Shown here piece by piece: positions 2,551 to 5,136 of a stretch of 46,169 nt of DNA; the stretch's first letter is position 1; each line of letters opens with the position of its first letter. The notes under the pieces are model-generated. The model searched no databases. It was not told the DNA's origin and saw only the letters and a program-made list of their open reading frames with translations. Source of the stretch: a virus; the IMG/VR virus record IMGVR_UViG_3300022744_000042, positions 1-46,169 of that record; one strand, 5' to 3'. The position numbers and the translations under genes were made by a program.

Positions 2551-5136
2551 TCAGTTGAAGCCATCCATGTCGGTGCAGCGTCCCACGGAGCCCCACCCAC
2601 CGGCCGCCTCTTCGAGGTCGCTGTCGGTCATATGGCTGGCAAGCGTGCGAGTCATGCCCGCGCCGTAGGATTCTACAGACCGCGCCCAGCCCAGAACCCA
2701 TTTCAAGAACTGCGTCACGCTGTCCACCTGGTCGTCATGCGTCGTGAGCGGGAACCCGAAGAACTCCCCCTCGAAGTCCACCAGCCACGGCGCCGACTCG
2801 GGGAGGATCAACAACCCGGACTCGACCATGCTGCTGACCTCGTTCGCCCGGAACAACTTCGACCCGTGCGGCTCGATGGCGATCACTGGCAGGGTCGTGG
2901 TGGTGCGCAGCTCCTGGATCAGGGACTGCCCGCTGCTCTTGTCCTCGATCAGCACGGCGGCGGGCCTGTCGCGCTCGGCATAGGCCATCACCTTGCGGCG
3001 CAACGTCGGGTAGTCCACGCGCTCCCGGTACAGGTCGGCGAGGTAGTAGCCCGGCGCCTTGCCGCCCATGCGCCACATCGTGCCCACCGAGGGGTCGTTG
3101 AGCTGGTCCGGCTTCTGCGCGGTGTCCCATGAGTGGACGCACAGGTCCGCCTCACGCGGGATTGTCGCCCAGCGGCGGACACACCAGCCATCCTTGAAGA
3201 TGCCGCCCTCATCCGGGCGCGGTCGCTGCTGGAACAGGGACGCCCAGGTGCGCGACTGCTTGCGGAATGGCGCCCAGTGCGAGGCGTCAAACCACTCCGG
3301 CCACAGCATCTCACCCACCTTGCGCCCGAGCGGGTCATCTGCGCGCTCGCACTCAGCCGGCAGGTTGATGATCTCCCACATCCGGCCATCACGGCATTCG
3401 ACCATGCCGGACTCGCCCGCGTAGTTCTTCGGCAGCAGGCGGCCCGATAGGTCGTCTTCGTGCCAGCGGGTACTCACCAGCACCAGAGAACCACCGGGGA
3501 TTAGCCGAGTCTGAAGGTCGTCCGTGTAGGCGTCCCACGTCTTGCCTCTGATGGTTGGACTGTCGGCTTGCTCTCTCCCTTTTATGGGATCGTCGATGAT
3601 CGCGCAGTTGTGGACAAGCAGCCCGTTTGCGAAAAAGCACTCGGTTCCATCCACTTGGATGTCATAGACCATGGCTGGCCCGCGTAGTCGCTCAACCATG
3701 GCCACAGGGTCGCCCGTGGTATCGAGCGATCCGCCCCATGAAGCCGCATGTGGCACCCGCCGCACAACGTCACCAGATTCCGCCATGCGTTGTTCATGGA
3801 GTTCATGTCGATGTGATGGACGTGCAGCGTCTTCGTTTCCGCGCACACGACGCACACCCCGCCGTCCCGCTTGATGATGCTCGGCTTCGCATCCCTGAAG
3901 CTCCTTGCGCTGTGCTCGTCCTGACGCGCCAGATTCGCGCCATTGCGCCAGCCCGGATTCCTCTCCCGCATCATCTGCGCCGAATGCCCGTGGTCCTTGC
4001 ATGCCCTGCCGCAGAACCGACCCGGCGCACTCATGGTCTTCGGCCTGAAGCTGATGTTGCACGTCTCGCACTGCCGCTCCGGCCTCTTCTGCGTCGTCGA
4101 GTCCTTTCTCGCCTTCGCGGCAGACTCTTTGCACGCACCCCCGCAGAATGGCGACCCGCTCCGCGCCCCCGGCGCGAACCGCTGAAGCTTGATGCCGCAC
4201 GCCTTGCACTTGGCGCCCAGCTTCCCGGCTGCTGCATTCACCGCCCGCTGCTGGCATGCGTGGCCGCAATAGACCGCGACCAGCCCCTTCTTGTCCGCCT
4301 TCTTCATCTGGAAGGCATTCCTCTTCAGGCTCAGCCTGCACCAGTCGCAAGAGCCGATCATCGGAGGAAAGAAGACGCGCCTCGACGAATCCTCTTTGGG
4401 TGTAGAAGCGATGATCTCCCGTACAGTCGACCACACCTCCATTGGCAGTTCGCACTCGATAGAGACCTGCCGCCTCACTCCGAGCCACGGCCTTGATGCG
4501 TCGATGAACCAGTCTTTGGGAATTGATGTCATAGGACAGAACATACCCCGGATCGCCTGATTCAACAAGAGAATCTATGCGCGATTCCCCGTCATCTGTC
4601 GCAACCATGGTGCCTCCAGACAGGCAGTTCGCCCGGTTGCCGGTAAGCCCCGCCAGCAGCCCCGCAGCCATGTACTCGCTGCCATTGGTCAGCGCCCACT
4701 CATTCGCAGCGCTACTGTCCTTGCTGATCGTGGCGCCGAAAAGTGATGAGAACCCGGACGACCGGACGATCTGCCTGGCTTTGCGCCCATGTTTTCGCGC
4801 CAGATCGCTGCCGTAGCTGGCGAGGATTATTTTGGTTCCGGGGTTCTTCCCCATGATGTACGTCGGCGCCACCACAGAGGCCATGGTTGACTTGGCGGAT
4901 CCTGGTGGCATGAAGACCATCAGCCGCCCGTACCGCCGCGATGCCGCCCGCTCGATCGTCTGCAGCAGCAGCAGATGGTGTGCAGCCAGCCCCGACTCCA
5001 CCGGCTTGAACAGCCACTCGTCCGGGTCGTCCGTCGCCGGCTTGCCGGGGATCTCGATCGCGTTCGCGTACCCGGCCAGCGATGCGCGCCCGCGTCGTCG
5101 GCGCAGCAGCTCCAGTGCGGCCTCCTGCGGGGTCAT
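2551..5136 (-). CDS. Terminase large subunit precursor containing an intein
   Basis: 861-residue open frame, of which residues 171-510 are an intein; the spliced terminase would be 521 residues, the usual size. Terminase packages DNA: an ATPase translocates and an RNase H-fold nuclease cuts the concatemer. Seen: Walker A-like PPGSAKST (residues 77-84), Walker B strand AIIDDP directly after the splice junction (from C511), and nuclease acidic residues in VHSWDTA (D671), VLIEDKS (E731, D732) and HDDQVDS (D801, D802, D805), in precursor numbering. ATG 5136 overlaps the TerS stop (ATGA). The intein interrupts the ATPase active-site motif, so terminase should be inactive until splicing. Confidence 0.95.
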   Translation of the reverse strand: MTPQEAALELLRRRRGRASLAGYANAIEIPGKPATDDPDEWLFKPVESGLAAHHLLLLQTIERAASRRYGRLMVFMPPGSAKSTMASVVAPTYIMGKNPGTKIILASYGSDLARKHGRKARQIVRSSGFSSLFGATISKDSSAANEWALTNGSEYMAAGLLAGLTGNRANCLSGGTMVATDDGESRIDSLVESGDPGYVLSYDINSQRLVHRRIKAVARSEAAGLYRVRTANGGVVDCTGDHRFYTQRGFVEARLLSSDDRLLRLVQAEPEEECLPDEEGGQEGAGRGLLRPRMPAAGGECSSREAGRQVQGVRHQASAVRAGGAERVAILRGCVQRVCREGEKGLDDAEEAGAAVRDVQHQLQAEDHECAGSVLRQGMQGPRAFGADDAGEESGLAQWRESGASGRAQRKELQGCEAEHHQAGRRGVRRVRGNEDAARPSHRHELHEQRMAESGDVVRRVPHAASWGGSLDTTGDPVAMVERLRGPAMVYDIQVDGTECFFANGLLVHNCAIIDDPIKGREQADSPTIRGKTWDAYTDDLQTRLIPGGSLVLVSTRWHEDDLSGRLLPKNYAGESGMVECRDGRMWEIINLPAECERADDPLGRKVGEMLWPEWFDASHWAPFRKQSRTWASLFQQRPRPDEGGIFKDGWCVRRWATIPREADLCVHSWDTAQKPDQLNDPSVGTMWRMGGKAPGYYLADLYRERVDYPTLRRKVMAYAERDRPAAVLIEDKSSGQSLIQELRTTTTLPVIAIEPHGSKLFRANEVSSMVESGLLILPESAPWLVDFEGEFFGFPLTTHDDQVDSVTQFLKWVLGWARSVESYGAGMTRTLASHMTDSDLEEAAGGWGSVGRCTDMDGFN
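3582..4361 (-). CDS. HNH homing endonuclease encoded out of frame inside the terminase intein
   Basis: Frame +1 to the terminase. The open frame reaches back to TTG 4568, but its N-terminal 69 codons merely shadow the intein splicing domain; recognisable endonuclease sequence begins at ATG 4361. It has three zinc-binding modules of C-x2-C ... C-x3-C type (CDWC/CGHAC, CKAC/CGGAC, CETC/CGRAC), then an HNH core at about 3854-3735 with CVVC, LHVHHID, WRNLVTL and CGGCHMRLH. The last 50 codons shadow the intein C-terminal blocks. HNH homing enzymes cut the empty allele of the insertion site, here presumably the terminase gene. No start has a good Shine-Dalgarno, so it may depend on reinitiation or frameshifting. 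The motifs are intact, so the enzyme may be active. Confidence 0.8.
   Translation of the reverse strand: MIGSCDWCRLSLKRNAFQMKKADKKGLVAVYCGHACQQRAVNAAAGKLGAKCKACGIKLQRFAPGARSGSPFCGGACKESAAKARKDSTTQKRPERQCETCNISFRPKTMSAPGRFCGRACKDHGHSAQMMRERNPGWRNGANLARQDEHSARSFRDAKPSIIKRDGGVCVVCAETKTLHVHHIDMNSMNNAWRNLVTLCGGCHMRLHGADRSIPRATLWPWLSDYAGQPWSMTSKWMEPSAFSQTGCLSTTARSSTIP
3607..4626 (-). other. Intein inside terminase large subunit
   Basis: 340 codons inserted between N170 and C511 of the terminase. Block A begins with Cys (CLSGGTMVATDDGE), block B has the TxxH motif as CTGDH (His242 of the precursor) followed by EARLLSSDDRLLRL, block F is VYDIQVDGTECFFANG and block G is LLVHN followed by Cys+1 (C511). 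These are the residues needed for standard Cys/His-Asn/Cys splicing. Recognisable splicing sequence covers about 92 residues at the N side and about 45 at the C side, the size of a mini-intein. The roughly 205 codons between are open in this frame but low in complexity (rich in E, G, R, A), because that DNA encodes an HNH endonuclease in the +1 frame. Confidence 0.93.

Follow-up and report, generated by a model that had tools for sequence, protein, structure and literature searches.

The window, 46,169 nt long, is the entire IMG/VR virus record IMGVR_UViG_3300022744_000042. On its minus strand a single ORF of 861 codons matches the terminase models PF17289 and TIGR01630 and contains an insert immediately before the Walker B segment (AIIDDPIK) of the terminase large subunit, TerL (Table 1). 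In the terminase frame, called the host frame below, this insert matches the intein splicing models PF14890 (E 7e-13), TIGR01445 (E 3e-10) and TIGR01443 (E 1e-6). The elements that define a class 1 intein are all found in this frame: C1 at position 4626, T-x-x-H in block B, blocks F/G ending in H-N and, from the permitted Cys, Ser or Thr, a Cys as the +1 residue. T69 and H72 of block B are invariant across 22 inteins, and the predicted extein join after removal of the insert reads ...GNRAN|CAIIDDPIK....

The AF2 model of the host-frame intein adopts the Hint fold at pLDDT 91-98 over residues 1-98 and 301-340, while the linker between them is disordered (pLDDT about 40), and Foldseek matches this Hint model to mini-inteins in the PDB. 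From motifs and model together, the insert is thus a predicted class 1 intein with intact splicing blocks and Hint fold, which would splice. The mini-intein proposed in an earlier sequence-only reading of this DNA is thereby borne out, as is its remark that the stretch between the splicing blocks carries no recognisable protein in the host frame: neither a protein nor a fold was recognised in this linker. As a control, the host-frame linkers of the phages Clown and S-EIV1 (see below) returned self-matches only in alignment and phage searches, indicating that the linker is not a known protein. A self-splicing intron was considered as well, and an Rfam search of positions 3300-4900 gave no match to an intron RNA family.

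Table 1. Features of the terL locus in the window
Feature	Positions	Strand	Evidence
terL ORF (terminase large subunit) including the intein, 861 aa	2551..5136	-	PF17289, TIGR01630, PF14890
N-extein of TerL, C-terminal end ...GLTGNRAN	4627..5136	-	
Predicted intein, 340 codons	3607..4626	-	splicing-domain matches; AF2 Hint fold; Foldseek to mini-inteins
Splicing block A start (C1: CLSGGT)	4609..4626	-	
Splicing block B (CTGDHRF, T-x-x-H)	4405..4425	-	
Splicing blocks F and G (VYDIQVDGTECFFANGLLVHN)	3607..3669	-	
C-extein of TerL, starts CAIIDDPIKGRE, including stop	2551..3606	-	
Host-frame linker between splicing halves, ~200 codons, HNH gene on the same bases in +1	3727..4332	-	
Overlapping predicted HNH endonuclease ORF, +1 frame, probable start ATG 4532 to TAA (3582-3584), 316 aa	3582..4532	-	
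HNH zinc module 1 (CDWC...YCGHAC)	4254..4349	-	
HNH zinc module 2 (CKAC...FCGGAC)	4131..4208	-	
HNH zinc module 3 (CETC...FCGRAC)	3999..4070	-	
HNH catalytic core (CVVC...VHHID...NLVTLCGGCHMRLH)	3738..3854	-	
Predicted dual-coding stretch: intein N-terminal splicing half (host) and HNH N-terminus (+1)	4338..4532	-	

Read one base on, the same DNA encodes a product that matches HNH proteins (phrog_1271, E 1e-19; PF01844, E 5e-4). It contains three CxxC...CxxxC (Cys4-like) modules and all key HNH residues, so that the intact three-module enzyme proposed from the letters alone stands, and the zinc cysteines and the catalytic VHHI...N...C..CH are invariant in an alignment of 23 HNH proteins. In its AF2 model the HNH core exceeds pLDDT 90, the zinc modules are confident and the tail over blocks F/G is disordered; Foldseek matches HNH cores weakly. 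The frame stays open past the end of the intein and stops within the C-extein, its last ~27 codons having a low-confidence fold and showing the constraint of the host frame only. With its motif and structural zinc cysteines intact, the product is a predicted HNH homing endonuclease that would cleave DNA.

Distribution of out-of-frame endonucleases in terL inteins

A tblastn search with the HNH protein found matches inside terL of Gordonia phage Clown and Synechococcus phage S-EIV1, in both cases one base off the annotated terminase CDS, which stays open throughout. A single-protein scan of IMG/VR gave no match and an alignment scan of genome contigs one weak match; profile scans of IMG/VR yielded many further contigs, and where their HNH lies inside a terL ORF the same +1 offset is seen in nearly all of them. 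About 80 IMG/VR contigs share the +1 layout, and the zinc-HNH TerL inteins found with an open host frame are all +1 except the distant, in-frame L216. An intein domain was present in each of 26 sampled host ORFs and in 49 of 49 in a further sample that included both this class and the one described at the end of this section. L084 and L085 were also considered as intein cases and rejected.

Close relatives with an in-frame HNH, as envisaged in the sequence-only reading, were sought, and the nearest relatives found (L175, 51 % identity; L176, 49 %; L011, 36 %) are all out of frame. The +1 arrangement is common to dozens of lineages at 20-40 % identity and must therefore be old, which does not fit the recent invasion first supposed. 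Some members have as little as 34-37 % G+C (L012, L014, L028, L038), so that a stop-free second frame of 150-250 codons is not luck. The HNH tree is weakly resolved and compatible with one or several origins. At the insertion site itself, 73 TerL relatives are uninterrupted (GNRAH|GALVDDPIK), the nearest being 78 % identical; the element is thus present sporadically, with empty target sites in close relatives, as homing endonucleases are.

A further class was found in L104 and L165, in which a TerL intein at the coupling-motif site contains, in the +2 frame, an HNH of the endonuclease VII type. The same +2 endonuclease occurs in Phlyer, Angelicage, Vincenzo, phi1_186018, Nordenberg and Chandler. 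Of 80 IMG/VR contigs, 78 have it as well, and the remaining two are truncated at a contig end (loci of the class: L104, L165, L169-L174, L246-L325). The mycobacteriophage TerL6-f inteins, Chandler's among them, thus resemble that of the window in lying in TerL and containing an out-of-frame endonuclease, but differ in insertion site, nuclease family and frame. In its accessible part, Kelley et al. 2016 (PMC5050341) reports that the Chandler gp6 intein (TerL6-f) splices in a reporter, and mentions a HEN domain solely for the LAGLIDADG inteins TerL1-b and TerL1-c. Chandler thereby provides the experimental precedent for an intein that splices around a linker with no meaning of its own.

Stop avoidance and selection in the two frames

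To count host-frame stops against expectation, the synonymous codons of the HNH gene were shuffled, with the protein and the codon counts kept. Between 3 and 19 stops are expected per zinc-HNH TerL intein, and none occurs in any of the first representatives. Taken together, 52 distinct members have 0 host-frame stops against about 558 expected, a zero that is conditional and partly built in because the members were chosen for a spanning host ORF, while the third frame has 733 against 631 expected. The argument for stop avoidance is therefore carried by the controls and by the low-G+C members: in 37 relatives without a spanning host ORF, which include a few fractured or in-frame intein cases, both frames are at expectation, and in single AT-rich members the openness of the host frame reaches P<1/2000. 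In the window alone, which is G+C-rich, the same shuffling gives P = 0.01-0.03, which is only suggestive and could nearly be chance. Across the family, the open host frame is certainly not due to chance. In the +2 class each member contributes less to the stop test (0 against 65 expected in 58 members).

How selection is divided between the frames could be followed in 12 representatives of the S-EIV1 group, whose inteins have identical length and no indels. In the exteins, host position 3 is the codon position that varies most; from intein codon ~40 this role passes to host position 1, which is HNH position 3, and from codon ~310 host position 3 takes it up again. In the core, dN/dS is 0.14 in the HNH frame, indicating purifying selection, and 1.42 in the host frame, with no sign of protein-level constraint, so that in the HNH core of these 12 relatives the host frame is selected only to stay open. 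The comparison of dN/dS by frame had been proposed in the sequence-only reading, and its outcome in these relatives, with the pooled stop counts, upholds the suggestion made there that the host frame is kept open only to allow splicing.

From codon 40 onwards, synonymous host positions are also frozen (GTG, ACA and CGT in 12/12), which, together with the switch in variability, places the beginning of the HNH gene inside the first splicing half. In the S-EIV1 group about 55 codons, block B included, accordingly code for two proteins. HNH-frame stops between codons 17 and 317 are absent from 27 of 28 distinct sequences of the group. When all lineages are taken together, the HNH frame has 49 stops across the first splicing half against 75 expected, an excess openness not clearly beyond that of the N-extein control (71 against 94); for the S-EIV1 group it was the aligned-codon test that settled the question. 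In one member of this group, L058, a single stop at intein codon 150 breaks the HNH frame while the host frame is unbroken, which places this copy in the homing cycle's decay phase.

Proposed mechanism and alternative explanations

The locus is very probably a homing intein made of two overlapping genes, one for the splicing element and one for the homing endonuclease, which are read in different frames. Translation of terL would give a full-length precursor in which the two splicing halves, separated by a long linker without meaning, stand between TerL-N and TerL-C, and from which the Hint domain, to judge by its intact blocks, would excise itself together with the linker to leave an intact terminase. 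The same DNA one base on would give a separate zinc-rich HNH endonuclease. This enzyme may cut intein-less terL near ...GNRA|GAxxDDPIK, and repair would then copy the whole element. In the host frame selection would preserve the splicing blocks and keep stops out, and in the +1 frame it would preserve the endonuclease.

An ordinary intein with an in-frame HEN that had suffered two compensating indels, real or introduced by sequencing, would look alike in a single genome, and the marginal P value of the window alone leaves room for it. This alternative, raised in the sequence-only reading, has nevertheless next to no probability, as the identical +1 offset recurs in two phage isolates and dozens of contigs at wide divergence, with stop avoidance and dual-coding selection. 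Another alternative, that a mini-intein carries the HNH as a passenger in decay whose frame is open because of G+C content, is also very improbable. The HNH-frame stop of L058 is what the homing cycle predicts for losses, but the purifying selection on the core, the invariant zinc and catalytic residues and the presence of the arrangement in genomes of 34-45 % G+C all speak against a passenger. HNH proteins adjoining terminase genes take part in DNA packaging in some phages, and the location of the HNH in terL could suggest that it works with the terminase in packaging, like the HNH proteins of HK97 type, and not in homing. However, related HNHs are also nested in DNA methylases, others are free-standing and close TerL relatives are without the element; this is the distribution of a mobile element, and a role in packaging is improbable.

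The homing intein with overlapping genes has also to be weighed against programmed +1 ribosomal frameshifting within the first splicing half or close to it, which would produce a TerL-N/IntN/HNH fusion. The sequence-only reading had offered such a shift, near 4350, as an alternative to a separate polypeptide. In the window lineage, L175 and L177 share the conserved HNH N-terminus, which begins at an ATG, that at 4532 in the window, and since the nearest relatives keep residues from there on (MTSIPKDWFIDASRPWLGV / MSTIPNGWFIDPLKPWLGV), this ATG, and not a site near 4350, is most likely the start, with a later ATG at 4361 as an alternative. The first splicing half would therefore be overlapped too. 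In L175 an HNH-frame stop stands two codons before the conserved ATG and the frame opens one codon ahead of it, which favours internal initiation. In the S-EIV1 group, HNH-frame constraint begins at a codon kept as TTG in 27 of 28 sequences, and a slip site conserved across the family was not found. What frameshifting has in its favour is that many members, the window ATG included, are without a strong Shine-Dalgarno sequence; a survey across members found no common ribosome site, so that the start mechanism is one we infer. HNH starts differ among lineages, and in L014 and L021 there is no ATG, GTG or TTG from block B to the first CxxC. Several S-EIV1-group members also contain CTT-AGT, a sequence similar to +1 shift sites of yeast. 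On balance, frameshifting is unlikely.

Relation to other inteins and nested genes

In canonical HEN-containing inteins, an HNH domain is fused in frame between blocks B and F. The HNH of the window lies between the same blocks, but no endonuclease is encoded there in the host frame. In-frame HNH inteins do exist (L215, L216), and count against the preferred interpretation; in those found, the HNH is more distant. Fractured genes with split inteins, reportedly described by Dassa et al. in 2009, have a free-standing HEN between the halves. They share with the window an independent HNH/HEN ORF between the splicing halves, and differ in that the host ORF is broken there, whereas it is kept open in the window. 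The link to fractured genes drawn in the sequence-only reading is strengthened by L033, L207 and L219, which have the order TerL-IntN / HNH / IntC-TerL and a host frame full of stops, with IntN and IntC still in one frame and the HNH at +1. This is the organisation that fractured genes would show if their split inteins had arisen from the overprinted form. L188 shows IntN and HNH in a broken form with the HNH at +2, in the part seen around the first splicing half (broken loci: L033:1-2900, L207:2400-5300, L219:1-2700, L188:10-1300). The HNH of L033 was at one time taken as free-standing, a candidate rejected because L033 is a fractured TerL intein. L022, overprinted at a slightly different insertion site, groups with L033 in the HNH tree with modest support.

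The zinc-HNH and endonuclease VII inteins with an open host frame probably, if less surely than the reading of the window itself, form a general class of overprinted inteins: splicing element and endonuclease as separate genes on shared DNA, with the frame fixed by nuclease family (+1 for zinc-HNH, +2 for endonuclease VII), a dual-coded first splicing half and an open host frame, intermediate between HNH-invaded mini-inteins and fractured split inteins. Canonical, overprinted and fractured forms would thus mark out a testable route from mini-intein to split intein. Intein homing endonucleases are taught as in-frame domains, and dozens of TerL inteins, those of well-studied phages included, carry an intact one in another frame; for annotation this means that inteins are called endonuclease-free or that the enzyme is missed. 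The dual-coding stretch offers a natural case in which one DNA serves a self-splicing fold and a nuclease, both with a clear readout.

Nested phage genes are familiar from Rz/Rz1 of lambda, where, as is proposed for the window, one gene is contained entirely within another and is read in the +1 frame from a start of its own; those are lysis genes and not a mobile element. The ShiLan domain, an out-of-frame HNH in phage DNA methylases with an open host frame, is nearer (Arsenault, Gosselin and Gogarten 2025, PMC11855218). As described in the accessible part of that paper, it likewise interrupts a phage gene whose host frame stays open, has a zinc-finger HNH in the other frame and is distributed sporadically. 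It differs in that the methylase is without splicing motifs and the insert is thought to be retained, whereas the host frame of the window matches all three splicing models and its insert should splice out. The same part of the paper contains no stop-avoidance or dual-coding tests such as those made here. Among the accessible papers, none was found that describes an out-of-frame endonuclease in a true intein; a preprint of the ShiLan group on non-canonical actinobacteriophage intein architecture (bioRxiv 10.1101/2025.01.02.630785) may have priority and may cover the Clown and TerL6-f inteins.

ShiLan-like out-of-frame HNHs were also seen in DNA methylase ORFs (L199:3690-5801, L208:3723-6230, L231:2775-4565 and L082:2854-4521), three of them with AT-rich inserts, and the methylase loci L004, L005 and L082 have no intein splicing motifs. 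The methylase loci extend the ShiLan-like class to C5 methylases and to low G+C phages. Among the terL loci, L012, L014 and L040 contain two inteins per gene, one at the P-loop site and an overprinted HNH intein at Walker B, the P-loop inteins of L014 and L040 apparently with in-frame LAGLIDADG-like sequence. Finally, a terminase-like ORF of 1202 aa (L216:2858-6463) combines an in-frame HNH intein with a separate LAGLIDADG match near residue 1007.
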